Of a stretch of 64,000 nucleotides of DNA, positions 18,072 to 60,110 are shown in pieces. The position numbers and the translations under genes were made by a program. The DNA is taken from assembly GCA_905221605.1 (NCBI GenBank), contig CAJNDS010002098.1:124001-188000 (forward strand), given 5' to 3'. The notes below the pieces were generated by a model. That model made no database searches, was not told where the DNA came from, and saw only the letters and a program-made list of their open reading frames with translations. The stretch comes from Symbiodinium natans (lineage: Eukaryota > Sar > Dinophyceae > Suessiales > Symbiodiniaceae). Every line of letters begins with the position of its first letter. Position 1 is the stretch's first letter.

Positions 18072-21000
18072 CTCGTGCGGAAAAGGGGGCGGTTATGGTC
18101 TCATTGCTTGACGTCGGAATGTGGGATGTTGGGGCTTATAGGGCTTAGGGTATCTGACTTCGGGGGTTCGACTTCGGGTTGTTGGGGAAAGGAGAGGGCA
18201 TGGTCGCCAAAGACCTTCGCAGGGGCATTGCACCGGCATTAGGTCAGGCAACTGCACCAGCAAACATCGCTGCGGCCTGTGATTCACTGTTAAAGCTCCA
18301 CTAAAAGCCAGTCTGTCGTCGGGCGTTTTCTTGATTCACCTCGAAAGTAATGCATGCTGTTCCCTGAAGAATTAAGCCTTCTAGAATTACCGCTCTGTGT
18401 GCGGGCTTCCGGAGCTGTCCTGACACCGCCCTGTCAGCCTCAGCCTCAAACCCTCAGCAACCGTACGCCATTGGCATTCCTGAACTAAGTATGATCCCAA
18501 AGCCCTCGATCCAGTACTCTGCACTCTCAAACTTCACTCTGAAGATAGACAACATCTTGCCCAGGCTCAGCTTCGTAAGGATGATTGTATTTGATTTTGA
18601 GGGCTTGCCATTGGCCAGGCTACACTTTAAGTTTGGGGGTTGCAGCTCCTTCGGATCCCTGAGCCTGAGAAGCCATACATCTTACCTTCAACCCCCATAA
18701 TGAGCTAAAGCGAGTGTGCCTCCAGGGTCAGGTAGGTCTTCTTTGGCGACAGCGTCTGTTTGGTGATCGTCTCCCAAAGCGTCGTAATCTCAGGAGGCCA
18801 GACTTGAAGGCTCTTTGCGAGCTTAAAACGCGTTGGAACTGTGGCAGTTGCAGCTCCAGGGATGAGAGCACTTTACCAGCCCGAAGGCTTCGAATGAGGT
18901 CATCTCCCGAAACCCTCAACCCTAAACCCTGAAGCCTCAACCCCAGACCCGAAACCCTAAACCCTAAACCTCTGCATGCATCGAGATGAGCATCTTTCAT
19001 TGGAGCAGCTTTCACTGCTTAGGTTTGAGAAACGTGCGAGAGCCCGTCTCTGATTCGAAGCATGTTTCACGGGCACGACCCTTCTTAGTCATAAAGTTCT
19101 ATGCCCTGTAGGAAAGCTCCACTGGCTGGAAGCACGGTGCAGAAAGTGAAGGGAATGATGGCTCAATGGGCATCGCAGGGATCCCGTTTCTGGATATGGG
19201 AGAAGATGCCGTCAGTGACGTGAATGTGCCTCTTGAAGACTATTGTTTTGTGTAGCGCCGGAAGCGCTTGAAACCCTGCCGAGCCTTCTCCTGCAGGCGC
19301 TTCCTATGCGCGGGAATGTACCTCGCGACCACTCAAGCTTCTGGGGGTGCACGACCTAAGCTCTCCGTTTGCTCAGGACTGGGCGGATACTGCCCAAATC
19401 GAAAAAAAAAAGAACGTCGACAAGTCCGGTTTCGGTAGGAACCTTCTTGTGTCTGGGTTTGCCTGACCAACAAAAGTGGCTGTTTTCTTATTGGCAGCCG
19501 AGGATCCTCCATCATGCATCCGCGCAAAACCGTCTTTCTATGTATCTTTGCTTGTTGGCGACTTGCCACGTCTGAGTCTGGGTTGGACTACATGCGCTTG
19601 CTTGCGTTAGTGCTGTGCCTGAGGATCATCCAACTTACCGTCCTTGTTCTTTTGATTGGCGCGCTAGGCCTACCCATGGCCGATCTTCCATCCGGCTTTA
19701 CCCGTTTGGTCAGATTGCGTGCTTGTTGGTTTGCTCTCCTGGGCTTTGGGGCGTAGGGTTTCAGGGATCAGGGTCTCAACCTTCAAAACAGTGTCGCAGC
19801 GCACGAATTGTACAAGCACGCATTGCCCGAAGACATGATCATGACCTCGATGCTGACCTGCAAAGTCTGGACAAGAGGCTCAGAGCTTTCAGCTTTGAGA
19901 TTCAAGAGGAGCACGGTTCGAGTGCTTCAGTGGAGGCATGGCAAGACACCACCTGGAGATGAGCAAAGCAGGCTCTACACCCTGAGCTGTGGCTGCAGCT
20001 ACGTGTTAGGTTGGCTCCCCCGGTTCCTAGTAGGAATTGGGGGAATTGGGCACCCTACATAACATTCCCTCATTCCCTACTAAGAACCAGCAAGGGCAAG
20101 GAGACATCCGCGTCGCGGTGCCTCTGCGGTCAGCCAGTCGAGGAACTGCTTCCTTGCATAGGGGGGGGGGGGGGGCGGGGGGGGGGGGGGGGGGGGGGGG
20201 GCGGGGGCGGGGGGGGTGGAAAAGGCAGTTGGGATGTTCCCGCTTGTTACGAACATTTACGAACAGCTCCTAATAGGGATTGCATTGGGGGGTACTACAA
20301 TCCCGATTAAGGAGCTGTTCGTATCAGGGGGAACATCCCAGGTCTTTTCATGCTTAAGGATGCTTCAAGGATTACAAGGTTCCGGTTGCGGAGGGTTGAA
20401 GGCACCTTGAAGGCTCACAGCCTTGCAAGCTGCCGCCGGTTCGGTTTGTGAGACTCTAGAGTCTTGGGAAGGGTTTCGGAACTGGTCCGGCAGGATCTGG
20501 GTGCAAGTTGGCCCGGTTGTTGCAACCTTTCATGCGGCAGACCTAAGCCCCCACATATTGCTATCCCTTCTCATGAATCTAATTTCCTTTCTCGCCGTCT
20601 GCACTGCCCTTCCAGCTTTGAGCTTGTACTCTGGAGAAGTGCTATCGAAGTCCCGCGTGCAACGGTTTGAGATCTGACTGCCGGGCGCAGTAGCAGCCGA
20701 GTGTCAGCGTCACGTCCCCCAACTTGCAGTCTACCTGCACGCAGAATATGAAGATCCATCTTCGTGGTCAGCAACGCCTTGATCAAACCTATCTTTCTAG
20801 CCCAAACAGGCCGACTAGCCTTCGCGAATTCCATCAATGATGACTCCTTGCTTTACAGGGCCGTTGTTGAAATCGATTGTGGTCCTTCCTGCTGCCCTTT
20901 AGAGCAATTTCAGGGTGGTTCCTGCTGGAGGGAGTGCAGGAGTACGGAAGATGTAACGTTCGAAGCTGTTTCGGGGATGTCAGGTGGAGGCGCGGGCCTT

Positions 21001-24000: not shown

Positions 24001-27000
24001 CGCTTTTGGGGGGGGGGGGGCCATTGAGGGGGGCTGCGATTTTACAGGGTACCTTATTGAGGGGTACCTTCTTTCTACTAAGGGAATCCTACTATCTGGG
24101 GTCATATAATGAGGGGTCCTAAAATCGTACAACTTGAGGGACCAGGTCAGCTTCGTCAACACTTGTAGAGACTATGAGCTGCTTCGAAAAGGCCAGCTGC
24201 CAGCAACCGTTTCGGAATCTTCAACAAGTCGACTTGTGAGAGGATCGGGATTTTTGCGTAGGAAAACCGCTATCTGAGACAGAGATTCGCAATGTAGGAT
24301 ATGGAGGACTGCATGAGTTGTAGCCAGATCCAGAGGGTAGGGAAGGGCTGGAAGTGTGGGGAGAGGGGAGTGGGCACTGAGGGGTGGTGGCGACGGCTAA
24401 GGTGGTGATGACGGTCTCGCTCATGTCTGCAAAGTAAGCGAGATGGCAGCGGGCATCGAGAACAGTGGGGAGACTATCAGAGGTCTGGGAACTTATGAGC
24501 CAAACGCACCATCACACGCAGCACCATGCATGTGCTCTGACGATTTTGGCCCACAAGGAGCTTGACCGCCAGAACAGCTGGGCCATGTTTCCTGATGCAG
24601 CCTTCAAGAGCGCTCTTCCCTCGTCCAGTCTATCAGAGCCTATATGCAGTTTAACCCTAAACCCTGAACCCCTAAAGCCTAAACTCCTAAACCCCTAAAT
24701 CCCTAAACCCCCAAGTCCTAAGCTCCTAAACCCCTAAACCTTATAACCCTAAGGCAAAAACTCCCTCGGATGCCCCCTGAGGTCTTCGCGCTCACGAGGC
24801 CGGTCACCATGGCAGTGGTGGTGGCGATGGCCGGGATGATCTTCCCCGCGGTCATCTTGACCTCGCTTTGAGAGGATCTTTTTGAGGTCTCAAGGGGTCC
24901 CAACGTTAGGGTTTAGGGTTTAGGGTTTAAGGTTTAGCGTTTAGGGTTTAGGGTTTAGGGCTAGCCCTCGCGACGACCACGGCATTAACGCCATGTGGTC
25001 TCTAGTCTACTTGTATGCTGCGTTAGCAACGTGAAGTACATCTGAAGTACACCCCAGATCCAGATCCAGATCCTCAAAATCTACAGGCACCTTGAGAAAG
25101 TCCACCTCCTGGATTTTGTAGTTCCGGGCCCGCCTCGGACGGGGCCATGGTGTCACGTGCCATGTCATGTAGGGGCGTTAGCGGTTTGACCCTCTCCATG
25201 GCCCTCCCTGGAGGAGGTTCTCAAAAGGATCTGGAAGGGGGCTGTGATCCCAACGCCCAAAACCACAAAACCACAAGCGCAAGCCCAACGTCGACTTCTG
25301 CAGGGGAAAGGGTGAAGTGGTAACTGGCCTGAAAAACCAAGGTGTGGGGCTACCATGAGGAGTGCATGAGTGCCTGTGGTGGGCGCCTACGCAAACTCTC
25401 CCTTCGCTTGGAAGTGAGGGCGTCACTCATGACGATGTCGGGTTTGCAAGTGAACTCAAGGTATCGAGAGTGTCTGGGGTTGTGTTGTGCAACTCGTGCA
25501 TGTCCATGCCCTCAAGGACCCAAAACTTGCACTGCGTGGTGGAGCTCCCCCCCAAAGATTAAAGAAGCTCGGCAGCTTCCAAAGCTCAAAACACCCTGCT
25601 TGCGGGATGTGCTACGATCTTGCGGGGTCTGTAGCTTGGATGTTGAGGCTCGTGATGAAATGCTCGTTCTGACGGGACCTTCTGCCTGGGGGCCTAGCTT
25701 GTGCACCTGTCCTAGAAGAAAAGACTAAGACGCTTTCAGCGCAGAGGTGTCGCAGTTTTGTCAATTGCTGGTGTAGCTGTCTGTCGACATAACTGCTCAG
25801 GCCAAATGGGAAACATTGACCGGACCGCCTTCCCATTCTGGAGGCTGTTCTGAGGCCGCGGCAAATTTGCAGCTGCCGCGATGAACTGAATGTGGAAGTT
25901 CGAGTCGTCGTCCTGAACAAACGAGTTGTGGACTCAGGTAATGAACCCCTCGATCTGCCCGAGGATGGCATCTTGCACACGGCCCAATAACAACATCTTG
26001 CGAGAACGTTGATTTCTGAACACTGACAGGAAGAACCCCTCCCAGGGCAGAGCATATTGGTCTCATGCTCTTTGTCGGAGCACCTCCAGCTTTGAACCCC
26101 CAAAGTCCTAGAGCCGCTAAATGCCAAGCAAAATTCCTCAAACCTTTCCTCATATGGGGATTTCCGAAAATATGGGGGGCACCCCTCATATACCCAAAAT
26201 GCTATGATCCCTTTAAAGAACCCCCCCAAAAAGGGTACCCCTACTGTCGGAAACCCCCATATGTCAAGGGCACAAAATTGGCCAAGCAATCTGCAACCTT
26301 CAGCTCCACAGCGCACCAACAAGCCTTCAAGCCACACATTCCTGGATTGTCGAAATTTGGGATGTTGATGGATGTTCCCCTTTCAACTAAGAGTCCTTAC
26401 ATGATAATCCCCATTAAGGACTGTTACGATAAGGGGGAACATCAGGCGCTGCGGCGGTCCTTCTCGAACTCTGCTGGTCGGAGGTCCGCTGCCGACTGCG
26501 ACCCCCCAAAGGTCCCAGTTGGCTCAAGTCTCGTGTGGGGGATTTAGGAAAGGAGGGGGGGGCCCGTAAAATAGACCCCGATCACCTTGCCTTCTAACAA
26601 TGGGGAACCCAATAAGGTACCCCTAATGTCGTCAACCCCCGTGTGGCTTCTGGGTTTAGGGCTCATTCATCTCGGAAGGCCTCAATAACGGGAACGGCAA
26701 AGACTTGAGGTTTTGGTCCATTGGCAATGTTTCAATGTTGAAGATTTGTATGGCGAACATAATCTGCACAATGCGTGTAGGCCCTAAACTCACAGGCGCC
26801 AGGAGATGTGGATGCAGCAGATCCAGTAACATGGAACATTGCGTGGAGATCACTGGGCACACAGGCACCCTTCCAATCCCAACTCGCTACATACACGCAA
26901 AGCCATGTACCCAGCTGCCTGAAGGCCAACATCACTCTTTTTTGACGAAGACCTTGAACCCCAAAACCTCTACGCTCAATATTCGGCTAAATCCGTCCAT

Positions 27001-30000
27001 CTCAGCCCCAAACCTTTTGACACTTGGGATGGCGGGTTTTAAGGCGCAAAGATGTCTGCAGTACATGTTTCCATGCCTCGTCCTCTTTGTGCAAACTTGA
27101 ACATGAGCCATCTCCCAAGCCCCTAAATGTTGCCCTCTTGAGGCCTCTGTTTGCATGGTCTGGGGATTTCTAAGGTCGGCCAATCCCCCGAGGACGGTGT
27201 CGCGGCCAGTTGAATTAAAAGTTCCGTGGTGCGCCGTACGAAATATTCCTAGGACGCCTGGACAACTTGATCTTAGAAGGGAAACTCCCGGACCCGAACA
27301 GTCGAACTTGACTGTATGGCGGGCACTGTCAGGCCTCAGACACTGAATCCCCCCCCCCCCCCCACCTTGAAGGACTTCATCTGCTCGGACATCTCTGCCA
27401 TCAGCTTCTTGGCCTCACAACACTTTGCGGTTTAGGGTTTAGGGGTTGAGGGTTTAGTCAGATGGACAAACTTTTTGGCTCTGGAGGGCACGACAAGAAG
27501 CACAAGCTGGAGTTGCCGTTGAGCTTGCGCACTCAGCCTCCTGATTTGTTCCAGAAAAAGCCGCGGCAAACCTTTTTTGGGGCTTAGGGTTTAGGCTTTA
27601 GGGTTCGGCATACATTCGGAAAACACAGCACGTAATTCCAACACCTAAGGAAAGCAGCCCAGTGGACATAATCTGTGGTGGTTGGTTCTGTATCCTTCCA
27701 CCCTCGTACTGTAAGCAAGTTGCGCCCACTAGCCACATCAATATGTTTTGCAGGAACGGTGCCATCGCAAGACATGAAGATTTATGGTTCCATGGCAACC
27801 CAACTTGGTAGGTCACGTTCAAACACACCGGATATTCAACAGAATCAGCACGATTTGATTTTAGATCGTTTCTGAAGCTGAAGACTTGCGAGTGAAGATT
27901 CCAACCCCGAAAACCTGTGGCGACCGCACTCGTCGGCTTACTGAGGTTCATAAAACCGGAAGAGAGGGAGCTGCCCCCCCCCCCCCCAAACAAAAAAAAA
28001 CAAAACAAAAAAGTACCGGCTTTGGACTCGGGGCTTCCCAAAGTGTTCAACACAAGTGTTCAAAACTTTGAATTCAAGGGTTGAGGGTTAAGGCTTAGGG
28101 TTTAGGGTTGGGATGTTCCCCTTCGTCGCAACAGCCCTTATAGGGATCATAATAGGGGGTACTATAATCCCAATTCAGGACGGCTAGTATAAGGGGGAAC
28201 ATCACAGGTTTAGGGTTCAGACTGGAAGCTCCCAACACTGGAGACCCTGATGCAATTCAGTGATCGGCAAGAGCATCGTCGTCCATGCAAGCTTCTGCGC
28301 TTGTGTCCTGGTTCAGGGTTGAGGGTTGTTCCAGAATCGGGACAACCAGCCGATGATGGGATTCTGGACTGAGATTCCCTTAGACTCAATTAGGGCTTGG
28401 CTTGTGGGGCCTGTTGGTTCGACATGGTTTATGGAGTCCGGATGGCCGGCCGCACCGACTTGCTTCTCCTCAAGTCCTACGACCACGACTCGAGGGGAGT
28501 TAAATCAAAAGGCTGCTTTGCTAGCTAAGGGTCGACGATGTGGAGATTGGAAAGTTGGCAATGCAACATGTGGCATCGCAGAGAAAGTGGCGGAATCACT
28601 CGAGAGGTTGCACATGCAGTTGAATGCACTCTCGTTCCTTAAGCAACTCCACATGGAACTGCGTTCATACTGCCTGCAAACTTGCACTGCAAAGCCGTGA
28701 TTTTGATAACGAAGACCTTACTGAACCTAGATGCAAGCTCTTCAAACTCTAAGTCTGTAACGCTTGGTAGCCCGAAACCTTATGATGGTAAGGGTACCCC
28801 TTTTTTGGGGTTGGTTACTCCTAAGGGAACCTTGCACCAAGAAAAGGGCAAAAGGGTGCCACTGCGTTAACAAACAAGAACTTATATACTAACTATTCCC
28901 TAAACCCTAAACCCCAAACCCCATATGACATCGTGGAAGCCGGCTAGAGACCCGCGGGAACCACGAGCACACGCCAAAGCCCCGAGCCCTCAGAGGCCTT
29001 GTCGTCGACCTTGATCTTCATTTCCCGCGGCTTGAAGTCTGGCACCTGCCAGTGCTGAGAAAGTGGTCTATAGGGTTTAGGGTTCATTCAGGGGATGATT
29101 AGTAAAGTGCAGCACTCCTTAGGCGTTTGGACTAACGTGTGCCTCCTGACTACACCTCTTACACCTGTGGTGTTCCTGCTCAACCCTAAGCCTCAGTGCT
29201 AGACATCCAGGCCCGAGTACACTTGCTATGGTGCGAATGGTGAGCAAGGCAGCAATTATTAATGTGCCTAGAAATTGAAGCGCTACCTGCAAACATCAGA
29301 GAGTCTATCTGGTGGACAGAGGTTGCAACTAGCTTACGTGGCCCGTCTTGTACTACGATCAGGAGCTTGAGGGTCTTTAAGGGTGCAGAAGGTGCAGGAG
29401 CGAACCTCCCCCCCAAGCCCTTGCCCTGACATATCTAACCTCTATCGCTCAGAGCCTGAAACCCCGAACACTGAGGTTGCTAATTACACCTTCAGCTCGA
29501 AAACCCCAACCTGCGAACGTACGTTTTAAGCTTCGAGGGCTTTAGTTGAAGCTCTTGGCCTTCACGGCCGCTGCCATCTTTGCCACCTGTGCGCGGTCGC
29601 GATTCTCGGGAACGCCTCGCAGGCTGCGATCGGCTTCTCCAGCTGCTTGCGGATGTTTTTGAGTAAACTCTACCCTACCCCACATCATAGGTTGACCTTT
29701 GACATCGGAGATCCAGATTGGGAAATTTTGGAATCTGTGGCTTCGGGCATTCTAGAGGCTTTGCTCTTCAAGTTTCTTGAGTGTGCATGGCGTAGCAGAA
29801 ATGGCGCTTGGAGCTGTGCAGACTCAGGACTGTTCGAGCTGGGTTCTACCGAAGGCCCTCTCGACTCAGCCCCAAGCAAAGCTCTCTTACTGCGGTGCTC
29901 CCTGGCCTAGGCTTTATGTTCCCTTCATAATTATACTAGTAGAATAACCACCAAAACTTAACCCTATTCTAATTATTAAGGCCCCTATATTACTGTGGTG

Positions 30001-33000
30001 CTCCCTGGCCTAGGCTGGTGGCATAAAGGTTGGCAGCCGCAAGGAGGAAGTCGACGTGCAGCGCGTCGTTGGCATCGAACTGCGGAGGTTCCAAGTGCGC
30101 AACTACGGCGACCCGAGAGCTAAGGCGAGAAACTGGGCACAACAGGGGCCTGTAATGCATCCTCATAAGGTCGTATAAAGGTCCTAGTAAGGTCCTAATA
30201 TCATTATTTGAGAGTGGCTTTTGCAGTTTGAGCGGTTTCAGGAACTACTGTGGGGCACCGGACTGCTTCCTTTCCGGCGAAAGAGGCTTCCGTTGTTTAG
30301 CTTTCGCGGGCCTGCCTCTCAGTAGCATGAAAGCTCGCAGCATGATGTGGGACTGATGCGGGCTTGTGTTTCTGTTCCCCAAGCAAGCCCTCAACATCAA
30401 ACCTGGAATCTAAGAGGGCGATTGCAGCTCACGAAATATCTCGGAGAGTTCGGCTATGGTTTGAGGGATCGGGGTTTGAGGGATCGGGGTTTGGGATTTA
30501 AGGTTCCGGATGTCGAAGCTTAGGGTTTTTTGCTTCTCAGGTTCAGTACAGCTTGCGAAGACCTCCTAAACCCTAAACCCTAAACCCTAAACCCTAAACC
30601 CTAAACCCTAAACCCTAAACCCTAAAGGGCACTTTCAAGACTTTGCTTCGACGATTCAGCCCATGCCTTGATCGGCGCCGGCGGACGCTTTGGTCCACTC
30701 CAGAACTTGGTGCCTTCGGACGTGACCTGATACTTGGGATGTTCCCCCTTATACTAACAGCTCCTTAATGGGGATTATAGTACCCCCCCCCCCCCTATAG
30801 TCCCTGTGAATAAGGACTGTTCGTATAAGGGGGAACATCCGACCTGATACCATCACGTACAATCCTTGCGATCCCAATAGCCCGACCCAAAGCCGAAAAA
30901 AACCCAAATCTGCCACCCACCTAGGTTCGACTTGCAGTCGCACTTTGGTGACTGGGGCTCCGGGTGATGCTTCTGCGAAAGCAGCCAGCTTCGGGCTCGG
31001 AATCGTTTGAGCTGGTTGGCAACTGGTTGACAGTGCTTGGAACATCTTGGAAGGATCTCGGTCATAGAAGTTGGACCCAGTCTGCACATCAAGGTCGCTC
31101 ATGCGGGGTGCCTGCAGGGTGCTTCAGGCGCAGGCGCTGAGAATACCTTAAGCCACAGACCTGAAGAGTAGACCTTCTAAAGTCAAAGAGAGTAGGACTC
31201 AGAATCATTTGCCAAAAAGGAGCCTATGCATCCTATGCCCAATGCCCGCATGCCTAGAACCTTGGAAGAGCCGTAAGAGCTTCGGCAACCCTTTTAACGC
31301 CATTAGCGTTTGTAGAGGCTTTCAGGAATCTGTCCCGTGAATCTTTCAAGTGTTCCGCCAATAAGGCCCCAGGCGTGATCCAGCGGGAAGGTGTGGAGCA
31401 GCTGCACGATGGAGTCGTGAAACCTTTGCTTCAGCTTCAGGGACTTTGAGCCTTCGGTTCTGAACTTCACGGGGGGGCGCTCCCAAAATGTTTCTAGGAA
31501 GCCTTAGCCTTATCGCAACCTAGGATGCCCCTCACTCAGAACACATACGGACGTCTGGAGCAGAACTTGGAAACCGTATGCTACTCACATGAGTGCCGGT
31601 CCAAGAGCTACTCAATGGGCAACAAATCCAGCAATCATGTGCGACTGTTGTTGTCATCTTCTGAAACTAGAATACATAGGTAGGGGTCAGGTTGTTTACT
31701 CATGCTGTTTCTGGACGCTTGGGACGCAAGCCCGACCTGCCAAAACACAGCCAAAGGCCCTTGCTCGCGACTTTTTGCTATGATGCCGAGCTAGTACAGG
31801 GGCGACGGACCGAGAAACATTCCTCATGATGCTGGGCTTTCACAACCTCCTTTCGGCTAAAGTCAACCCCTCCGACCTTTTCGTGATGCTTTAACAAAAT
31901 CCCAACACAACCCGCAACAACCCGCACCTTGCAGCGCTAGAAGACGTAGTTGCTGACGCATGCCTTGGGCCGCCACTTCTCCTGGAACTCCATCACTGCA
32001 TACTCGGCACACGCGTCGAAGGGCTGCTTGCGCTGGCACGAAGCACGCTGTCAAGGTGCGGGGTTGGGGATGTGGAGCGTACAGTTATGGGGTCTGTGGT
32101 TCAAGCGGATTCAGTGGTTCTCAAAATAGTGACCCAACATGCATTTACCTTCGGCGAACCATAACCCTGCGAGAACTTCAGAGACATCGAAGGCAGTTCG
32201 TTAAGGGGTATAAGGAGGGACCCCTAGAAGGGACCCTTAGTCTTATTCAAAACCCCTACCTTAGATAGTCCCTAGAAATCTAAGAAGCCCCGAAGTAACC
32301 CCTAAAGAACCTCTCAGGCCCCTTACAAGGGTCCCTCCTTTAGTCCCTTGAGTTTGGGGCTTGGGGGAGGTTTGGGCCCTACCTTCTGCAGCATTTGCTG
32401 GAGGGAGCGCAGGCGCTGCACTTGTGACGTGCCGGAGCCCATGGAGGGCACCTTCTTCAAGTACCTCTTCAATGCAAGAGAATCTGAGTTTAGGGTTTAG
32501 GGTTTAGGGTTTAGGGTTTAGGATTTAGGGGACTCTGGGGTTCGCGGGCTCAGGGCTTTAGGGTATCTTGGGGAACTGGCTACGGTTTCTTCAGAAAAAG
32601 ACTTGAACAGGTCTGGGCTTTGACGATTTGAGAACTTGAGAGCTCGAAAATGCCCTGCGCGATTCGATAAAGCTTTAAAATCACTGAGAACCCTGCAAGC
32701 ACGCTGCAAATCAGATTCAAGCTGCTAAATAGCTCCCGTAAAACACGGAAGGGCCATGCAATCAGTTGAAGTCGCACATACAAACACAAACCCTAAACCC
32801 GAAACCCCAGCCTCAAACCGCGAATCACAAAATCCTGCCAAACCTTCCGCGGCATCCCCTCAACACCTCGAATCCAAAGCCTCAAAGGCACTATATTGAC
32901 TATAGCCCCCAAGCAGATTGAATACACTGCGCAAACCGGTGCAGCAAGCCAATTATTCAAGACTCTTGATGTAAGTTCAGCCGCCGGGGCTCGGACAGGT

Positions 33001-37200: not shown

Positions 37201-38511
37201 CCTGGAAGCCAACATCTAAGGATATCCAAGGCCAGCAAAGCCCCCCAAGCCCCAGAGCCTAAACGCCACGCCCGAAACCCCCCAAGACTTTGACGCCTGG
37301 ATGTTGTCGAGAGCATTGACCACGCAGTCCAGGCTATCCCAGAACTCGTCGTCAAAGGTGTCTTCTGTGTCTGGCCCCACGCCTCAGGCCGCTCAAGCCC
37401 GTTCAAGTGGACAGAGGATTTGATTAAGAAGGTTTTGAAGGTTTCAGGACTGGGGCTCAGTGGGACTGCTTATGTCTAGGGCCCCATAGGGGCTGGGCAC
37501 TCCGAGGGCGAGCATGTCATGCTTTCCGGACATCTCAGAAGCGCACCCGAGACAGAAGAGACCACATATGAGGCGTCGGCCCAAACCACCCCCCCTAAGC
37601 CTCAAATTGTTTCTCATATGGGCTGGCGGCGTCTTCTCTCTGCTTCGTATGCTTTTCCAGTTTTCTTCTCTTCCTATGCCTATTCCGCTCAATTCGTCCG
37701 GGTGCGTTTCAGGATAAGCAGAAATCCGAAGTGCTTTCCCAGCGGCCTGGAGCAATGTTACTTTAGAGCTTTGTAGGGTTGAACTGGTTCCAAAAGCTTA
37801 ATAAAGTCGTGCGCGAATGTTCACAGTCTGGTGTTTTAGGGTCATGGGGCTTGGGGCTTGGGGGCTTAACCCGAAGCCCTAAACAACCACACTGAATCAC
37901 TGAAGGCAAGGGGCGTACTTCCATAGCTTCCACCTTCAGGTCGGCGTTCATCGCCTGCTTTTTTAAAGCGGCTTCTGGGCTTTCAGGCGCATCTTGAGGG
38001 TTTGCAGGTGCAGAGGAAACCCTAAACCCTAAACCTCTTTTATCGATACAGAAACCTCTCTAGCCATGCCGTAGTCGTTGCTTTGGAGGGCACCTCGCTC
38101 CTTCAAAACGCCGTTGCAACCCATTGAGGTGTGGCCACCGTCTTACAAGCAGGCTCTAAGTGGGGCTTCTTCCGTGTGTGCTGCGTGTCCTTCCGACAAG
38201 ACGTTTTTGCTTGGTAGTTTGCTTCATGTCTGCACAAACATCAATGCTACAGAAGACACTTTCGGGGCACCGAGGCAGAAACGTGGGAGAACTGCATTGA
38301 AATCTTAACCTACACACCAAGACCCTCATCCTCAACATTCAAACCCGAAACCCGAAACCCGAAACCCGAAACCCTAAACCCTAAATCCTAAACCCTAAAC
38401 CCTAAACCCATGGGCGGAAGCATCCCAGAGGGCTCTCTTTGCAGGCTTAAGAGCACCCTGTCCTTGGCAGCCCGCGCCGCCACCTGCGATTTCGAGCTGC
38501 CGACGTCCGTC
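17958..38511 (-). CDS. UBA1: ubiquitin-activating enzyme E1, 3' two-thirds of gene in 27 traced exons
   Basis: E1 adenylates ubiquitin, binds it as a thioester and passes it to E2 enzymes (cytosol and nucleus). Exons read on the minus strand follow the known E1 order: end of the active adenylation domain ([35 protein letters not shown]), the catalytic-Cys motif ([16 protein letters not shown], the Cys of SIPLC being the thioester residue), the Cys-domain helices ([20 protein letters not shown]), the crossover ([21 protein letters not shown]) and the C-terminal ubiquitin-fold domain that recruits E2 ([32 protein letters not shown]). Reading phase agrees at every junction between consecutive traced exons. 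About 1.46 kb of 20.5 kb is coding. Short pieces are unplaced between 36,958 and 35,514, between 23,549 and 21,218, and between 21,180 and 20,148. The N-terminal half (inactive adenylation domain, first catalytic Cys half) was not found up to 41 kb. Donors: 17 GC, 7 GT, 2 GA. UBA6-like E1 cannot be excluded. Confidence 0.93.
18720..18788 (-). CDS. UBA1: E1 exon 26
   Basis: [20 protein letters not shown] then TLE, equivalent to the TEIVxxVxK...LxLEL segment near the E1 C-terminus. Acceptor ctcctgag; GC donor GAG|GCACAC. Confidence 0.78.
18906..18970 (-). repeat. telomere-like CCCTAAA tract
   Basis: Degenerate CCCTAAA/CCCGAAA words in an E1 intron. Confidence 0.75.
19285..19303 (-). CDS. UBA1: E1 exon 25, 19-nt microexon (tentative)
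   Basis: Completes Ser then KRLQEK. Acceptor gcatag and GC donor AAG|GCTCGG; phases fit both neighbours. Only six codons, so chance is possible. Confidence 0.35.
19805..19857 (-). CDS. UBA1: E1 exon 24
   Basis: [17 protein letters not shown] plus TC of Ser, matching LEITMLSxGxSxLY in length and pattern. Acceptor gactttgcag; GT donor (TC|GTGCGC). Confidence 0.8.
20027..20087 (-). mobile_element. MITE-like hairpin, GGTTCTTAGTAGGG family
   Basis: The ends ggttcctagtaggaatt and attccctactaagaacc are near-perfect inverted repeats. Lies in the E1 intron 35 bp downstream (minus strand) of the exon 23 donor. A second copy is at 38,512-38,573. Confidence 0.7.
20122..20148 (-). CDS. UBA1: E1 exon 23
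   Basis: QFLDWLTAE, aligning with the TLxxFLDYF segment. GC donor GAG|GCACCG. It may start four bases earlier at 20,152. A ~57-nt poly-C on the minus strand precedes it. Confidence 0.65.
20161..20217 (+). repeat. poly-G tract, ~57 bp
   Basis: Nearly uninterrupted G with four C interruptions. On the minus strand this is a poly-C run just before the acceptor of E1 exon 23. Confidence 0.95.
20230..20340 (+). mobile_element. MITE copy, GGGATGTTCCCC family
   Basis: gggatgttcccgctt at one end and gggggaacatccca at the other; internal subterminal inverted words gaacagctcctaa/ttaaggagctgttc. In an intron of the E1 gene. Confidence 0.75.
20735..20792 (-). CDS. exon-like segment in the E1 intron (possible E1 or other)
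   Basis: Minus strand: [19 protein letters not shown] plus one base before GCAG|GTAGAC. The pattern is somewhat like the TLxxLL...L part of the ubiquitin-fold domain, but the phase does not fit exon 23, so membership in E1 is doubtful. Confidence 0.3.
21180..21218 (-). CDS. UBA1: E1 exon 22, start of ubiquitin-fold domain
   Basis: [13 protein letters not shown], the T-x-WD+ motif that opens the ubiquitin-fold domain. Acceptor aaaaagtcag; GC donor AAG|GCTTGG. A few residues expected before it are missing. Confidence 0.78.
23093..23179 (+). CDS. plus-strand exon inside an E1 intron (unidentified)
   Basis: Acceptor gtctgtgtgcag, donor GAT|GTGAGA (canonical). 29 codons: [20 protein letters not shown] then SRIWRMFAD. 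Antisense to E1 and lies in the intron between 21,218 and 23,549. Family not recognised. Confidence 0.42.
23549..23596 (-). CDS. UBA1: E1 exon 21
   Basis: [16 protein letters not shown], the YKNxFxNLALPxF motif. GT donor TGG|GTGCTG. Confidence 0.85.
23831..23920 (+). mobile_element. MITE copy, GGTAGCCCAGTAACC family
   Basis: The terminal words ggtagcccag and ctgggctacc are inverted repeats, with an AAGGGTGCCC-like core. Relatives at 28,765-28,860 and 55,571-55,682. In an E1 intron. Confidence 0.7.
23959..23997 (-). CDS. UBA1: E1 exon 20
   Basis: [13 protein letters not shown], equivalent to the GLxxLELxKxV segment. GT donor AAG|GTGCCT. Its acceptor is preceded by a poly-C tract on the minus strand (24,008-24,020). 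Confidence 0.78.
24045..24122 (+). mobile_element. degenerate MITE, GGGGTACC/TTATTATAAGGGG family
   Basis: Shares ggggtacctt, gggaatcctactatctgggg and aggggtccta words with copies near 10,127, 40,065 and 63,593. In an E1 intron. Confidence 0.5.
24522..24599 (+). CDS. plus-strand exon-like segment inside an E1 intron
   Basis: After cacacgcag reads [20 protein letters not shown] then AMFPDA, before a GC donor. Antisense to E1. Family unknown. Confidence 0.35.
24652..24755 (-). repeat. telomere-like CCCTAAA/CCTAAAC tract
   Basis: About a dozen degenerate heptamers (ccctaaaccctgaacccctaaa...) in the intron between E1 exons 19 and 20. Confidence 0.8.
24796..24861 (-). CDS. UBA1: E1 exon 19
   Basis: 22 codons containing [20 protein letters not shown], the most diagnostic E1 signature in the window. 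GT donor CTC|GTGAGC. Confidence 0.96.
24906..24963 (+). repeat. TTTAGGG tract
   Basis: Eight near-perfect TTTAGGG heptamers in the intron between E1 exons 18 and 19. Confidence 0.9.
25091..25133 (-). CDS. UBA1: E1 exon 18
   Basis: Completes Leu then [14 protein letters not shown], the NLRAxNYxI motif. GT donor AAG|GTGCCT. Confidence 0.92.
25363..25460 (+). CDS. plus-strand exon-like segment inside an E1 intron
   Basis: Possible acceptor gaggag, donor TCAAG|GTATCG. 32 codons including [20 protein letters not shown]. Antisense to E1, between exons 17 and 18. Confidence 0.33.
25863..25912 (-). CDS. UBA1: E1 exon 17
   Basis: [16 protein letters not shown] plus TT of Leu, the E1 DDDSNFHxxFIxAAxNL motif. 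Acceptor ctcgtttgttcag. GC donor (TTT|GCCGCG). Confidence 0.93.
26147..26266 (+). mobile_element. MITE, catatggggatttccg family
   Basis: The ends catatggggatttccg and cggaaacccccatatg are inverted repeats, with a gggggcaccc/gggtacccc core resembling the GGGGTACC family. Confidence 0.7.
26369..26443 (+). mobile_element. MITE copy, GGGATGTTCCCC family
   Basis: gatgttcccct at one end and aagggggaacatc at the other, with a ccccattaaggact core. Lies 17 bp from the donor of E1 exon 16. Confidence 0.7.
26460..26495 (-). CDS. UBA1: E1 exon 16
   Basis: [12 protein letters not shown], leading into the FEKDDxSNxH motif. GA donor AAG|GACCGC. A MITE begins 17 bp downstream of the donor (26,369-26,443). 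Confidence 0.82.
26556..26646 (+). mobile_element. degenerate MITE related to the GGGGTACC family
   Basis: Contains caataaggtacccctaatgtcg and flanking cccccgtgtgg; weak inverted ends. Confidence 0.4.
27366..27413 (-). CDS. UBA1: E1 exon 15
   Basis: [16 protein letters not shown], equivalent to the LxxLKxxLP...F segment. Acceptor tgttgtgag, donor AAG|GTGGGG. Confidence 0.72.
27462..27587 (+). CDS. small plus-strand ORF bounded by TTTAGGG tracts
   Basis: ATG opens directly after ggtttagtcag and closes at TAG inside ggcttaggg: 41 residues, [20 protein letters not shown] then [20 protein letters not shown]. Basic, GC3-rich codons. Antisense within the intron between E1 exons 14 and 15. It may be an exon rather than a complete gene. 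Confidence 0.33.
   Translation: MDKLFGSGGHDKKHKLELPLSLRTQPPDLFQKKPRQTFFGA
28109..28206 (+). mobile_element. MITE copy, GGGATGTTCCCC family, with 10-bp TSD
   Basis: tgggatgttcccc...gggggaacatcaca, flanked by direct repeats ggtttagggt at 28,099-28,108 and 28,207-28,216. The target was itself a telomere-like tract. Confidence 0.85.
28765..28860 (+). mobile_element. MITE copy, GGTAGCCC family
   Basis: ggtagcccgaaacc start and the core aagggtacccc...ggttggttactcctaagggaacctt shared with 55,571-55,682; the right end is degraded. Confidence 0.55.
28998..29045 (-). CDS. UBA1: E1 exon 14
   Basis: [16 protein letters not shown] (VPxFxPxxxxKIxV motif). Acceptor cactggcag. A GC donor follows AAG. An alternative GT donor at 28,961 would add 12 residues and gives a loop length closer to known E1s. 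Confidence 0.8.
29560..29615 (-). CDS. UBA1: E1 exon 13
   Basis: [18 protein letters not shown]; matches the region before VPxFxP. Phase 1 start joins exon 12 as Gly; GC donor AAG|GCCAAG. Confidence 0.8.
29914..29991 (+). mobile_element. 78-bp insert flanked by 25-bp duplication at an E1 splice donor
   Basis: The 25-bp blocks 29,889-29,913 and 29,992-30,016 (tgctccctggcctaggct core) match with one mismatch. They flank an insert whose right end, aggcccctatatta, is shared with the 15,025-15,115 element. The second block contains the exon 12 donor. Confidence 0.75.
30010..30079 (-). CDS. UBA1: E1 exon 12
   Basis: [20 protein letters not shown] plus TSL(G), the FDxxxxxHxxFxxAAANL motif. GC donor (G|GCCAGG), which lies inside a 25-bp duplication flanking a small insert. 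Confidence 0.9.
30564..30626 (-). repeat. perfect CCCTAAA telomere-like array
   Basis: About nine perfect heptamers, 40 bp from the 3' end (minus strand) of E1 exon 11, within the intron. Confidence 0.95.
30667..30726 (-). CDS. UBA1: E1 exon 11
   Basis: [20 protein letters not shown], the E1 PFWSGPKRxP motif. GC donor AAG|GCATGG. The acceptor (atcag|GTC) is inside the 10-bp target duplication of the adjacent MITE. Confidence 0.92.
30734..30840 (+). mobile_element. MITE copy, GGGATGTTCCCC family, with 10-bp TSD at E1 exon 11 acceptor
   Basis: gggatgttcccccttatac at one end and gtataagggggaacatcc at the other, with a C-tract centre. The 10-bp direct repeats gacctgatac at 30,724-30,733 and 30,841-30,850 include the acceptor (minus strand gtatcag|gtc), so the splice site is present on both sides of the element. 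Confidence 0.92.
31375..31423 (-). CDS. UBA1: E1 exon 10
   Basis: [16 protein letters not shown], the conserved IxQLLxxFPxD motif. GC donor; phase 2 start completes Trp from exon 9. Confidence 0.88.
31974..32032 (-). CDS. UBA1: E1 exon 9
   Basis: [19 protein letters not shown] plus TG of Trp; corresponds to the segment before the IxQLLxxFP motif. GC donor. Read-through would end at TAG 31,937-31,939. Confidence 0.75.
32207..32340 (+). mobile_element. MITE-like element, TAAGGAGGGACCC ends
   Basis: taaggagggacccctagaaggg faces cccttacaagggtccctccttta; the ~22-bp inverted ends are readily seen. In the intron between E1 exons 8 and 9 region. Confidence 0.7.
32383..32483 (-). CDS. UBA1: E1 exon 8
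   Basis: [20 protein letters not shown] followed by [13 protein letters not shown]; aligns with the weakly conserved helical part of the Cys domain. GT donor AAG|GTAGGG. Phase 1 joins exon 7 as Asp. Confidence 0.75.
32488..32526 (+). repeat. TTTAGGG tract
   Basis: About five perfect heptamers immediately upstream (minus strand) of the acceptor of E1 exon 8. Confidence 0.9.
32527..34080. other. long E1 intron, contents unassigned
   Basis: A minus-strand frame at 32,800-32,980 ([20 protein letters not shown]) is membrane-like but lacks convincing splice borders. Otherwise degenerate CCCTAAA words. Confidence 0.35.
34081..34241 (+). repeat. (GT)n followed by TTCGTG hexamer array
   Basis: gtgtgtgtgt then repeated ttcgtg with ttttcgtg variants, starting 13 bp beyond the E1 exon 7 donor. 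Confidence 0.95.
34254..34302 (-). CDS. UBA1: E1 exon 7
   Basis: [16 protein letters not shown] plus one base, the ARxxFExxF motif. The GC donor (G|GCACAT) lies beside a hexamer repeat array (34,081-34,241). Confidence 0.85.
34899..34934 (-). CDS. UBA1: E1 exon 6
   Basis: [12 protein letters not shown], the conserved FPNxIEHxIxWA motif directly after the catalytic Cys loop. Acceptor cctctcgtccag; GC donor TGG|GCCGCT. Confidence 0.9.
35476..35514 (-). CDS. UBA1: E1 exon 5, catalytic cysteine
   Basis: [13 protein letters not shown] contains the thioester-forming cysteine in the IPxCT context. GC donor AAG|GCGCCT, phase 0. The ~20-residue segment expected before it (TKGNxQVxxP region) was not located. 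Confidence 0.88.
36253..36331 (+). repeat. (TA)n-rich tract
   Basis: tatatgtatattatgtatac then a run of ~12 TA units; in the intron between E1 exons 4 and 5. Confidence 0.9.
36746..36760 (+). repeat. (GC)n tract
   Basis: gcgcgcgcgcgcgcc; possible Z-DNA-forming run. Confidence 0.85.
36853..36893 (-). repeat. CCCTAAA telomere-like tract
   Basis: About five heptamers, two perfect runs, 65 bp from E1 exon 4. Confidence 0.85.
36958..37019 (-). CDS. UBA1: E1 exon 4
   Basis: [20 protein letters not shown], nearly identical in pattern to the E1 [21 protein letters not shown] motif. Acceptor ttcccccacag; probable GC donor inside the Thr codon. Confidence 0.9.
37075..37190 (+). CDS. plus-strand exon nested in E1 intron 3
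   Basis: A strong acceptor (tatgtttcttgcag) is followed by [20 protein letters not shown] then [15 protein letters not shown]. Charged and coding-like. Lies wholly within the 277-nt intron between E1 exons 3 and 4 on the opposite strand. The donor is not fixed. Confidence 0.4.
37297..37382 (-). CDS. UBA1: E1 exon 3
   Basis: Begins (R)[14 protein letters not shown] and ends VVNALDNIQ, the conserved E1 stretch before the ARxYxDxxC motif. GC donor CAG|GCGTCA. Confidence 0.88.
37915..37954 (-). CDS. UBA1: E1 exon 2
   Basis: [13 protein letters not shown] plus the first base of Arg, corresponding to the xMNPxIxV segment of E1. GC donor, phase 1, which restores Arg at the next junction. Confidence 0.75.
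38341..38409 (-). repeat. CCCGAAA then CCCTAAA array
   Basis: Five CCCGAAA variants followed by CCCTAAA units, 53 bp from E1 exon 1; a variant telomere-type array. Confidence 0.92.
38463..38511 (-). CDS. UBA1: E1 exon 1 of those traced
   Basis: Encodes [16 protein letters not shown], matching the DVG-x-x-KS segment after NLNRQFLFR in adenylation domains. Ends AAG|GACAGG (GA donor, phase 0). Its acceptor (ctactgag) is the terminus of the inverted-repeat element 38,512-38,573. Confidence 0.75.
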
Positions 38512-40165: not shown

Positions 40166-41230
40166 TACAGCACCCGTGATTCCTTCAAAGAGGCCCCCCC
40201 GATTTGAAAGGAAATGTCGGTCTCGGTTCGGACGAAGGGTTTGCTCTAAGAACCTGAAAACTCGGTTCGGGGGGGGGGGGGGGCGGTAGACCTTCACGAA
40301 CGGTGCCCCGCTGTCACACAGCAAAACTTCTCAGAAGTTCAGCTCGGTGGTGGAGTTTCTCAACCAGAATGGGGATCCTGCTTGGCATGGCTGTTTAAGT
40401 GATGAAGGGTCTCAGGAAAGGACCAGTCTTCCAACCAGAGTGTAAAAGATAAGAGGCCTACACTCTAAGCCCTTCAGCCAACACTCGCATGCTACAACCT
40501 TCAGCAATCGGCCACCAATCTGCGATTCTTCGTCGCAATGTCAAAATTTGCCGCAAGCCCCCAAACCCTCCATTTTGAGACCGGGCTGCTAAACTACAAA
40601 GATCTGCGAAGCCTCGAAAATTATCAACGCCTCACCCAACCTTTCCACAACTCTCAGTCCGGCGCTTTCTGGATCCGATGCGGCCTGTCCGGCGTAACAC
40701 AAGCCCGACAGTAGTTACTTCAGTCTGAAGAGAACCTATTCTGTAGAATGTTTGAGAGCTCATGTTAAAAAAACCAAAATAAAACAGGAATATCAGCAGG
40801 CTTGACGGGGATTAGGGAACAGGTTTTCAGTCGGCTTGAGTGGCTAGAGGGTCCGCGAAGCACGTGCGCACGCTGTACGCTGAAGGAAAAGGAAGCGTGG
40901 CTTAGGGCATGGGCCGCCACACTACAAACATAACTTCAAACACATCTCTTGCCTCATCCTTGGCGTCCTTCAGAGACAGCCTCGGATGACAAACAGTACT
41001 AGGCGGCAAAGCTATGGGTGCTGAGCCTCCCAATCCTGCTGAGTGGCACTCTCCTTGCAGTTGTGCCCATTCGTTGAAGCACTTCACGGGCCACCTGCCA
41101 GAGGTGCACTGAGCAACGGCTTAAGCGTGCAGGGCTTCAGCAAAGCTCAGCAAAGTGATAAGAGTAACCCCCCTCAACAAATAGAAGTCATGGGGGGGAG
41201 GCAACTTAGGAGGGGGGGGGGGGGGGGTGG
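40166..41230. other. spacer, no gene supported
   Basis: G-tracts at 40,267-40,284 and 41,213-41,227. Short open frames without domains. Leads into the repeat block. Confidence 0.5.
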
Positions 41231-42126
41231 CTTAAATAGGGTCTATTTGGAAGCTGAGAGTCGTGTTTTGGTGTGGTAGATAGAAAGGAAAGGGCATGAT
41301 AAAGTAGCGAGAGGAGCTCTTCAATTCCCTTCCTTATCTCCTATGCTCTTTTCCTTCTTTATTGCAACAGGAGAAGACAGGAAAAGGGCTTCCATTCCCC
41401 ACTTGTTCTTCCTTTCTTGTGTTTTTGTCATTTAGAGGGGAACAGGAGAAGAGGAGGGAGAGAGAAGGAGAGGGGAGAGAGAACAGGAATCCAATTTCAG
41501 TGGAATAGCAAAGAAAAGAATAGAAGAGAGATGAATAGAGAAGAGGGAGAGACAAAACGAGGCGCTGAGAAGATGGCACTCTTCTTTATCTATCCTATCT
41601 CCCTTATCTCCTTTACCTTCCTAGGCTTTATCATTCAAGTTCTTTTCTTGTGTTTTATCAGTTAAACGGAAACAGAAGGAGAGAAGGGAACGGGAAGTGA
41701 GAGAGGAGAGACAAAAAGGAGGCCATTTTAATTTTCTGGAAGGGTACTGAACAGAAGAGAGGAGACAAGAAACAAGGAGACGGAGGAACACAACAAGGCG
41801 CAAAGAAGATGGCACTCTTCTTTATCTATCATCTCTCCCTTCCTTGTCTCTCCCTTTTCCCTCTATTATTAAAAAGGACAAGACCTCTTCGCAGATAGGT
41901 GCCCTCTCTCTTCTTCAGGAAGCCCCCTTGCCCTTATTTTGCTTGCCTTCTGAAACGACAAGGAAAACAACACATAGAAAGAGAGGAAATGGAATGAACC
42001 AATAGGCAATGGAGCTCTTCAATTTCTTTCCCTATCTCTTTTCTTCTTTTTTCATTCTTCATTCAACAAGGAAAAGAAGCTTCCTTTTGTGTGTTTTTGA
42101 GATTTAAAGGAGAACAAGAGAAGAGA

Positions 42127-42174
<48 letters not shown>

Positions 42175-42368
42175 GAGGAGAGATCAAAAGGAATGCAACT
42201 CTAAATGGAAGAGCAATGAAAAGAATGGAAGAGAAATGAGGACAGGCGAAATGCAAAAATCAGGCAAAGAGAAGACGGTGCTCGTTTTCATCTTTCCTCT
42301 GGTTCTTATTTTTCTCTTCTCTTGTTCATTTCCGTTAGAAAAAACAAAAGGAATAACAATGAACATGT

Positions 42369-43215
42369 AAGCAAACCCAGCTGATGCTCATGATTTTTTC
42401 CTTTCTCCCTCTCTCTCTCTCTCTCATATATGGGCGATGGAACGGGTGTCCTTGTTGGGCCGTTTCCTGCATCTTCAAGTGAGGAACCTAAGTGTTTTCT
42501 TTTGTTCGTTTGAAGACACAGAAAGCGATTAAAAGGGACGTCCATTTTGGATTGGCAGCCAACCTCTCTCTCCCTATATATGGGCGATGGAATGGGTTTC
42601 CTTTTTGATCGTTTTCTGCATCTTCAAGCGAGGAAAAGGGACACCCCATAAGAAAGCACTTAGGGTGTCCCTTTTGCTCGTTTGAAGACACAGCAAGCGA
42701 TCAAAAGGGACGCCCATTTTGGATTGGCAGCAAACCCAGCTGATGCTCATGATTTCTCTCTCTCCCCATATATGGGCGATGGAACGGGTGTCCTTCTTGG
42801 ATCGTTTTCTGCATCTTCAAGCGAAGAAAAGGGACACCACAAAAAAACACTTAGGGTGTCCCTTTTGCTCGTTTCAAGAAACAGAAAGCGATTAAAAGGG
42901 ACGCCCATTTTGGATCGGCAGCAAACCCAGCCGATGCTCATGATTTATCTCTGTCTATATATGGGCGATGGAACGGGTGTCCTTCTTGGATCGTTTTCTG
43001 CGTCTTCAAGCGAAGAAAAGGGACACCACAAGAAAACACTTAGTAAGGGTGCCCCTTTTGCTCGTTTCAAGACACAGAAAGCGATTAAAAGGGACGCCCA
43101 TTTTGGATCGGCAGCAAACCCAGCTGATGCTCATGATTTATCTCTGTCTATATATGGGAGATGGAACGGGTGTTCCTGATCGCTTTCTGCATCTTCAAGG
43201 GAGAAAGAAGGGCAC
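42369..43215 (+). repeat. ~190-bp tandem subrepeats, unit A
   Basis: Copies marked by gctgatgctcatgat at ~42,379, 42,737, 42,929 and 43,118, with a truncated copy near 42,557. Each has a (CT)n stretch, tatatgggcgatggaacggg, and the inverted words aaagggacacc/agggtgtccctt. Confidence 0.92.
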
Positions 43216-43739
43216 CACCCAAGAAGGAAAAGTAACATCAGATATAGGGAGGGAAATTGAAGAGCTCCTCTCTTTACTTAGTCATTCCCTTTCATCTCTT
43301 CTTATCTGTTGTTTTCTTCGCTTCAAAAAGCAAAATAAGGGAAAAGAGATTTCCTGAAGAGGAGGGAGGGCACCTATTGAAGAGCTCCTGTCTTTACTTA
43401 GTCATTCCCTTTCCTCTCTTATCCGTTGTTTTATTCGCTTCAAAAAGCAAAATAAGCGAAAAGAGATTTCCTGACGAGGAGGGAGGGCACCTATCTGTAA
43501 AGAGCAATCGTTTAGAGGGGAACAGGAGAAGAGGAGCGAGAGAGAAGGACAGAGGAGAGATACAGGGAATCCAATTTCAATAGAACAGCAAAGAAAAGAA
43601 TAGAAGAGAGATGAATAGAGAAGAGGGAGAGACAAAACAAGGCGCAGAGAAGATGGCACTCTTCTTTATCTATCCTATCTCCCTTATCTCTCCCTTCCCT
43701 CTTTCTTTTCGAAATAAGAACAACTAAAGAGGAAGAATT

Positions 43740-45860
43740 TATGAAAAGGAGAAGAGTAAGGAAAAGAGCAGAAGTAGGCCGAGAAGAGGGACATGATGAA
43801 GTACGGCAAGGTCCAAGCGCAAGGAGTCACCCTCTGCTTTACCTTCCACTGCTTTATCATACAAGTTCCTGTCTTGTGTTTTATCAGTTAAACGGAAACA
43901 GAAGGAGAGAAGGGAAAGGGAAGTGAGAGAGGAGAGACAACAAGGAGGCCATTTTAATTTTCTGGAAGGGTACTGAACAGAAGAGAGGAGACAAGGAACA
44001 AGGAGACGGAGGAACACAACAAGGCGCAAAGAAGATGGCACTCTTCTTTATCTATCATCTCTCCCTTCCTTGTCTCTCTCTTTTCCCTCTATTATTAAAA
44101 AGGACAAGACCTCTTCGCAGATAGGTGCCCTCTCTCCTCTTCAGGAAGCCCCCTTGCCCTTATTTTGCTTGCTTTCTGAAACGACAAGGAAAACAACACA
44201 TAGAAAGAGAGGAAATGGAATGAACCAATAGGCAGTGGAGCTCTTCAATTTCTTTCCCTATCTCTTTTCTTCTTTTTTCATTCTTCATTCAACAAGGAAA
44301 AGAAACTTCCTTTTGTGTGTTTTTGAGATTTAAAGGAGAACAAGAGAAGAGAAGGGAGAGAGAAAGGAGAGAGGAGAGATCAAAAGGAATGCAACTCTAA
44401 ATGGAAGAGCAATGAAAAGAATGGAAGAGAAATGAGGACAGGCGAAATGCAAAAGTCAGGCAAAGAGAAGATGGTGCTCGTTTTCATCTTTCCTCTGGTT
44501 CTTATTTTTCTCTTCTCTTGTTCATTTCCGTTAGAAAAAAAACAACAGGAATAACAATGAACATGTAAGCAAACCCAACTGATGCTCATGATTTTTTCCC
44601 TTCTCCCTCTCTCTCTCTCTCCATATATGGGCGATGGAACGGGTGTCCTTGTTGGGCCGTTTTCTGGATCTTCAAGTGAGGAACCTAGGTGTTTTCTTTT
44701 GTTCGTTTGAAGACACAGAAAGCGATTAAAAGGGACGTCCATTTTGGATTGGCAGCCAACCCAGCTGATGCTCATGATCTCTCTCTCTCTCTCTCCCTAT
44801 ATATGGGCGATGGAACAGGTGTCCTTTTAGATCGTTTTCTGCATCTTCAAGCGAAGAAAAGGGACACCACAAGGAAACACTTAGGCTGTCCCTTTTGCTC
44901 GTTTGAAGACACAGCAAGCGATTAAAAGGGGCGCCCATTTGGATTGGCAGCAAACCCAGCTGATGCTCATGATTTATCTCTGTCCCCATATATGGGCGAT
45001 GGAACGGGTGTCCTTTTTGGATCGTTTTCTGCGTCTTCAAGCGAAGAAAAGGGACACTACAAGAAAACACTTAGTAAGGGTGCCCCTTTTGCTCGTTTCA
45101 AGACACAGAAGGCGATTAAAAGGGACGCCCATTTTGGATCGGCAGCAAACCCAGCTGATGCTCATGATTTATCTCTGTCTATATACGGGCGATGGAACGG
45201 GTGCCCTTCCTGATCGTTTTCTGCATCTTCAAGGGAGAAAGAAGGGCACCGCCCAAGAAGGAAAAGTAACATCAGATATAGGGAGGGAAATTGAAGAGCT
45301 CCTCTCTTTACTTAGTCATTCCCTTTCCTCTCTTCTTATCTGTTGTTTTCTTCGCTTCAAAAAGCAAAATAAGGGAAAAGAGATTTCCTGAAGAGGAGGG
45401 AGGGCACCTATTGAAGAGCTCCTGTCTTTACTTAGTCATTCCCTTTCCTCTCTTATCCGTTGTTTTATTCGCTTCAAAAAGCAAAATAAGCGAAAAGAGA
45501 TTTCCTGACGAGGAGGGAGGGCACCTATCTGTAAAGAGCAATCGTTTAGAGGGGAACAGGAGAAGAGGAGCGAGAGAGAAGGACAGAGGAGAGATACAGG
45601 GAATCCAATTTCAGTGGAATAGCAAAGAAAAGAATAGAAGAGAGATGAATAGAGAAGAGGGAGAGACAAAACAAGGCGCAGAGAAGATGGCACTCTTCTT
45701 TATCTATCCTATCTCCCTTATCTCTCCCTTCCCTCTTTCTTTTCCAGATAAGAACAACTAAAGAGGAAGAATTTATGAAAAGGAGAAGAGTAAGGAAAAG
45801 AGCAGAAGTAGGCCGAGAAGAGGGACATGATGAAGTACGGCAAGGTCCACGCGCAACGTC
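43740..45860 (+). repeat. internal direct repeat B of copy 1
   Basis: Near-identical to unit A from the polypurine section onward (for example 43,950-44,570 repeats 41,725-42,370 at an offset of ~2,226), with four ~190-bp subrepeats near 44,576, 44,762, 44,957 and 45,156. Confidence 0.9.
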
Positions 45861-45865
45861 TGCCC

Positions 45866-46273
45866 AGAATTAAATAATTTAAATAATTTAAATCCGAAAG
45901 GGGCGTTTCGGATTTAAATTATTAAAATTATTTAATTCTGGGAAGGGGGGGGGCCCGGTCCTGCCCCCCCCCCCCCCTTTTCGGATTTAATTTATTTAAA
46001 TTATTTAATTCAGGGGGTGGAATTAAATAATTTAAATAATTTAAATCCGAAAGGGGGGGTTCGGATTTAAATTATTGAAATTATTTAATTCCCCCCCCCC
46101 GGAATTAAATAATTTAAATAATTTAAATAATTTAAATAATTTTAATAATTCAAATAATTTAAATAATTTAAATAATTTAAATAATTTAAATAATTTAAAT
46201 AATTTAAATAATTTAAATCCGAAAAGGGGGGGGGCCAGGCCCGACCAGGCCCCCCCCCTTCCCAGAATTAAAT
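45866..46273 (+). repeat. AT-rich cruciform array, copy 1
   Basis: Runs of the 9-mer aaataattt with palindromic modules such as cccagaattaaataattt...aaattatttaattctggg around a ccgaaaggggcgtttcgg centre, separated by G/C clamps (gggggggcccgg, cctgcccccc). Truncated by the assembly gap. Confidence 0.92.
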
Positions 46274-48700: not shown

Positions 48701-48731
<31 letters not shown>

Positions 48732-50749: not shown

Positions 50750-50785
<36 letters not shown>

Positions 50786-50959: not shown

Positions 50960-51005
<46 letters not shown>

Positions 51006-60013: not shown

Positions 60014-60110
60014 GGGGGAAGGGATTATACTAACAGTCCTTAATGGGGATTATAGTACCCTCCTGTTATAATCCCGATTTAAGGACTGCTAGTAGAAGGG
60101 GGAACATGCC
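60014..60110 (+). mobile_element. MITE copy, GGGATGTTCCCC family
   Basis: attatactaacagtccttaatgggg at the left and aaggactgctagtagaaggg...ggaacatg at the right. The left end is degraded. Confidence 0.65.

Follow-up and report, generated by a model that had tools for sequence, protein, structure and literature searches.

A MITE flanked by two copies of an intron acceptor in a ubiquitin-activating enzyme gene of Symbiodinium natans

The minus strand of the window (a stretch of 64,000 nucleotides of the Symbiodinium natans genome, contig CAJNDS010002098.1) carries a ubiquitin-activating enzyme (E1) gene, one intron of which ends with a 107-bp MITE placed between two copies of the intron acceptor. 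Our preferred explanation, which we hold to be probable, is that a member of a common MITE family inserted across this acceptor and lengthened the intron in a splice-neutral manner, the downstream acceptor being the one used. If so, the E1 case means that a high-copy element can strike the splice junction of a conserved gene and yet spare the protein. Coordinates are given in Table 1.

Table 1. Positions in the window of the E1 exons and intron, the element with its flanking copies, and other copies of the family
Feature	Position	Strand	Remarks
Preceding E1 exon, 3' part (22 residues, ...HTFPLDH)	31375..31440	-	ends at 31375, followed by GCCTGG, a GC donor
E1 intron, phase 0, GC donor, AG acceptor	30727..31374	-	648 nt in all, element included; 531 nt if counted to the upstream copy
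Upstream target copy	30841..30850	-	intron probably terminated here before the insertion; AG up to 30844, then the potential donor GTCGGA
107-bp non-autonomous MITE	30734..30840	-	terminal inverted repeats (TIRs) at 30737-30754 and 30823-30840
Downstream target copy (GTATCAGGTC, gene strand)	30724..30733	-	acceptor AG ends at 30727, exon from 30726
E1 exon after the element (20 residues)	30667..30726	-	begins with GTC; followed by another GC donor
Next E1 exon, part (24 residues)	30008..30079	-	acceptor CCGCAG/TTC, placed from the alignment
Family copy, target duplication GTTTAGGG	28111..28204		TIR search of the window
Shorter, diverged family copy	26370..26444		TIR search of the window
Family copy, no clear target duplication	20232..20338		TIR search of the window
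Right arm of a partial family copy, left end not recognised	60092..60109		TIR search of the window

The E1 intron and the element at its 3' end

Pieces of the gene match E1 structures. Compared with E1 proteins, the joined exons gave a match with E = 6.3e-13, with a query that retained some intron read-through after PIK. Three exon pieces joined at the downstream acceptor matched the Pfam family UBA_E1_SCCH (E = 5.8e-26), in agreement with the initial annotation, which had read the repeat flanking the element, on the minus strand, as the acceptor of an E1 exon. In this match 63 residues were aligned to 63 profile positions, which indicates that the E1 exons join without net gap. A tblastn search with a fragment of human UBA1 gave collinear minus-strand matches at 31425, 30738, 30088, 25921 and 24858; the match at 31425 was weak when taken alone (E = 3.0), whereas the remaining four had E < 3e-4. 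The end of the exon that follows the element was placed by means of a 14-residue alignment gap caused by intron read-through.

In S. natans, most donors are GC (58%) and nearly all acceptors are AGG (97.1%) (PMC10666404, Table 2). The GC donors and the AGG acceptor of the E1 locus fit this norm, and this was counted in favour of the preferred explanation. No branch point was located in the E1 intron. A stop-to-stop frame of 124 codons (30749-31123, minus strand) overlaps the intron and the end of the element, and a possible GT donor is present inside it. The open reading frame MSDLDVQ..., which lies within this stretch, was considered as an E1 exon and rejected: a splice from its GT donor would be out of phase with the exon that follows, and the tested part had no Pfam match above the cut-off, AraC_N alone being returned below it (E 0.14).

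The two ends of the element are complementary at 18 of 18 bases, and arms extended to 24 nt are still 96% complementary. The perfect 10-bp repeat that flanks the 107-bp insert, GACCTGATAC, has a chance expectation of about 4e-5 in a simple calculation that assumes 42 offsets and equal base frequencies, and together the repeat and the inverted ends are certainly beyond chance. An inverted-repeat element of this length, with a 10-bp duplication both copies of which keep AG/GTC, had been described in the initial annotation, and this description was confirmed, each copy reading GTATCAG/GTC on the minus strand. The target duplication itself is shorter. A 10-bp duplication as the rule of the family was rejected, as the family copies show 8 bp (see below). 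The E1 element has TTG at one end and GA at its right end, where the family has CAA; in view of this replacement and of the family rule, we take the 10-bp repeat to be an 8-bp target duplication (CCTGATAC) with two further matching bases. The presence of GA in place of CAA means that the element is not a textbook fresh insertion, a point that counts against the preferred explanation. The E1 insertion is a clean and probably recent example of its kind.

A high-copy MITE family

The 18-bp terminal repeat of the element had 6149 exact matches in the genome (759.4 Mb) and the reversed control had none. The earlier proposal that insertion of a MITE duplicated an acceptor of the E1 gene is supported. 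With two arms for each element, these matches correspond to at least 3,075 elements, to which diverged copies have to be added. Within the window, the first 17 bases of the TIR gave 8 matches with at most 3 mismatches, compared with 0.21 in shuffled sequences. Among the 40 candidates scored, of 2591, 39 places other than the E1 locus were 82-88% identical to the element.

Family copies were read at 38 loci, consisting of the 8 best-matching loci and of the first 30 terminal-repeat places; all 30 of these places are on one contig, so that the 38 loci are not a random sample. These loci and the window together gave 33 distinct elements, identical cores being counted once, and elements being excluded when their 14-base end had more than 3 mismatches or their outer ends were 170 or more bases apart. 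The copies end with TTGGG...CCCAA and are 63-160 bp long (median 99 for the 33 copies, only lengths below 170 having been considered). Of the 33 distinct copies, 18 are flanked by an 8-bp duplication that has no more than one mismatch and that is perfect in 10 of them, compared with 26 of 858 (3.0%) in a control in which one flank was slid. Members of this family are MITEs: they are short and have TIRs, a duplication of fixed length and a high copy number, and they are too short to encode a transposase. At one locus (L036, 1501-1778) two MITE copies, both with a perfect 8-bp duplication of their own, are no more than 90 bases apart.

Splicing of the lengthened intron

According to the preferred explanation, a transposase encoded elsewhere would have inserted the short MITE precisely where an E1 intron that was already present meets its exon, at an empty site reading GTATCAG/GTCACG. 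Through the target duplication, seven bases from the intron end and one from the exon start would have come to flank the element on either side, and the copy that adjoins the exon would have retained the real acceptor, which could then be used by the spliceosome. The element would fall in the last 117 nt of an intron lengthened from 531 to 648 nt, and the working acceptor would be shifted by 117 nt from the rest of the intron. With use of the downstream acceptor the E1 protein would not be altered; it would be intact because the target duplication copied the acceptor.

The upstream copy has the same acceptor sequence, 531 nt past the donor. According to the initial annotation, splicing at either copy can remove the element. 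This is not supported for the upstream copy, which, when used alone, keeps in the message 117 nt that are in frame and contain a TAA, unless a second splice takes place from GTCGGA. For removal by a single splice the downstream acceptor is required. Of the two AGs, which stand in identical 10-bp copies, the upstream one is the first to be reached, and in the preferred explanation it is assumed to be skipped. Alternatively, the upstream acceptor might be used and the element kept in part of the E1 transcripts, resulting in a truncated protein or in transcript decay. Such a use would be in line with the position of the upstream AG, first of two with the same sequence and in its original upstream context; we nevertheless regard it as quite unlikely, since it introduces a stop into a gene that is presumably essential and since the downstream acceptor is intact.

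At 30844/30843 an AG is directly followed by GT, as in a recursive splice site: the upstream copy reads CAG/GTCGGA, an acceptor that abuts a GT donor. The element could in principle be an intron of its own, the upstream acceptor being used first and the GTCGGA donor being joined next to the downstream AG, a route to which we assign little probability. On this reading the upstream copy would be a recursive splice site with a zero-length exon, which a single transposition event would have created. The 117-nt piece does terminate in AG, and the one-step and two-step routes yield the same mRNA; however, a single splice is enough, and once the first of two splices was made, CAC rather than CAG would stand before the donor. 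The terms 'introner' and 'recursive splicing' occur together in PMC10228655, PMC8469720, PMC9024468 and PMC6310983.

Transcribed in the sense of the gene, the element is predicted to form a single long hairpin (-56 kcal/mol, z -5.2; -66 kcal/mol when folded with the flanks). If this hairpin forms, the two AGs are 13 nt apart instead of 117, and on this folding model the hairpin would probably help the spliceosome to reach the downstream AG. It was also observed that in the predicted fold with flanks the downstream acceptor is partly paired with the end of the intron, a pairing that could hinder rather than help.

Target preference and comparison with introners

S. natans has 35,270 genes with 14.7 introns per gene, as given in PMC10666404. 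Random insertions would have AG/G wholly inside the duplication in 0.41% of cases (six suitable registers per acceptor), and about 12.6 acceptor insertions are expected by chance among 3,075 elements. The landing place on an acceptor is therefore explicable by chance and need not be more than that. As dinoflagellate introners are already known and a dozen or more chance hits are expected, the single case described here changes little.

Some features of the duplications point to a choice of target. AGG, on either strand, was present in both copies of the duplication in 12 of 18 elements (background 34.5%, P = 0.005), a count that includes the E1 element and becomes 11 of 17 without it. Several duplications read GTTTAGGG, GTTCAGGG or GTATCAGG on one strand, which is close to an acceptor. 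In view of the AGG enrichment, target choice may raise the number of acceptor insertions above the chance level; the case is weakened by the presence of AGG in only 5 of the 10 perfect duplications, by telomere-like TTAGGG sequence in 5 of 18 duplications (background 5.2%) and by the small, non-random sample. It is a rather doubtful proposition that the target preference of the family overlaps the dinoflagellate acceptor (GTTTAG/G-like), with repeated insertions on 3' splice sites that would give longer introns with the same mRNA, or recursive sites, the hairpin hiding the insertion from the acceptor search. If it were true, transposition would directly generate recursive splice sites and would lengthen introns at their 3' end. 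A preference for AG/G would also provide many natural tests of the choice made by dinoflagellate spliceosomes between two equal acceptors with a hairpin in between, and of the formation of recursive sites.

The same duplications bear on whether the element belongs to an introner family, which creates introns in exons at AG/G sites and of which the E1 locus would be a by-product. The mechanism would be that the final G of the target duplication and the TT of the element form GT, and that the AG of the second copy serves as acceptor. The geometry alone would allow this: a duplication ending with AGG followed by TT reads AG/GTT, the second copy provides the acceptor, and the element could be spliced out with restoration of the sequence present before insertion. 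The TTGGG...CCCAA ends with 8-bp duplications and the AGG enrichment are compatible with such an origin, and introners with TIRs and target duplications are known in Symbiodinium microadriaticum (legend of Fig. 2B of PMC9860276). On the other hand, the AGG that permits exact repair, at positions 6-8 of both copies of the duplication, was found in only 3 of 18 cases (the E1 element and the elements at loci L005 and L030), AGG is present in only half of the perfect duplications, and the copies were sampled non-randomly. Altogether, we consider an introner origin of the family unlikely, though less so than the alternatives discussed above.

The surroundings of the copies may point in the same direction. 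Flanks were joined across 32 distinct elements, those less than 400 bases from the end of a locus being dropped, and the open frames obtained had a median of 59.5 codons, compared with 58 codons at 3000 random sites, and an upper quartile of 86 compared with 85 codons. One copy (26370) was above the 95% point of the random sites, which is about the chance level, and ten of the 32 copies, when translated, appeared non-coding by eye. In this small, non-random sample, the open-frame test revealed no indication that the elements had landed in coding sequence.

At the E1 locus itself, the initial annotation had recognised the geometry proposed for introners. The TIRs, the AG/G-bearing duplication and the GT at the junction are indeed present, but the part of this view that concerns intron gain was not borne out, the 531-nt intron being already there. 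The element with one target copy accounts for 117 of the 648 nt between the exons, the remainder lying upstream, and it was therefore rejected as the creator of the intron, whereas an introner is nearly the whole of its intron. The methods described in PMC9860276 look for introns whose similarity extends almost to the donor and the acceptor, and 'secondary insertion of TEs ... within preexisting introns' is filtered out. By this rule, the E1 locus is not introner-derived, since the intron pre-existed.

The introners of S. microadriaticum, as presented in passages of PMC9860276, resemble the E1 element in being short dinoflagellate elements with inverted ends and target duplications, and their duplications can supply splice sites. 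They differ in that the intron consists of the element itself, with a 4-bp target duplication and a 3' splice site of its own, whereas the E1 MITE has an 8-bp duplication and a canonical end, CCCAA, that is devoid of AG, and it extends an existing intron. Dinoflagellate introners are also the subject of Roy et al. 2023, as cited in PMC11453091. In Amoebophrya, the inverted repeats of introner elements can fold the intron into a hairpin that unites the exon borders, and direct repeats are present at the borders, as at E1 (passages of PMC7789003). According to the same source, however, these direct repeats are 3-5 nt long, the splice motifs are non-canonical and the inverted repeat is not family-specific, in contrast to the one family, the one terminal repeat and the 8-bp duplication of the E1 MITE. 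Fungal stwintrons (passages of PMC12403724) are similar in that one intervening sequence consists of two intron units, some with near-terminal inverted repeats that join the ends; they have a split donor, RNA reads in support and no target duplication, whereas at the E1 locus the acceptor is duplicated rather than split and the second intron is only a possible one.

Insertions of the maize elements Ds and dSpm, which make short target duplications, are likewise removed from transcripts by splicing; these are plant elements, and their splicing was shown by RNA.

Other repeats were observed in the window. Two arrays of an inverted-repeat unit of about 100 bp (AATGCGGGGGAATCACCG... / ...CGGTGATTCCCCCGCAT) lie at 3120-3793 and 4221-4625, in mutually opposite orientation. 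Nested long repeats occupy 41200-52850, with units of about 2 kb, 193-218 bp and 113-117 bp, some of which are inverted, and they contain TTAAATAAT arrays at 46105-46218 and 52684-52734. Short telomere-like CCCTAAA/TTTAGGG arrays are scattered in the window, for example at 30565-30626 and 38341-38409.
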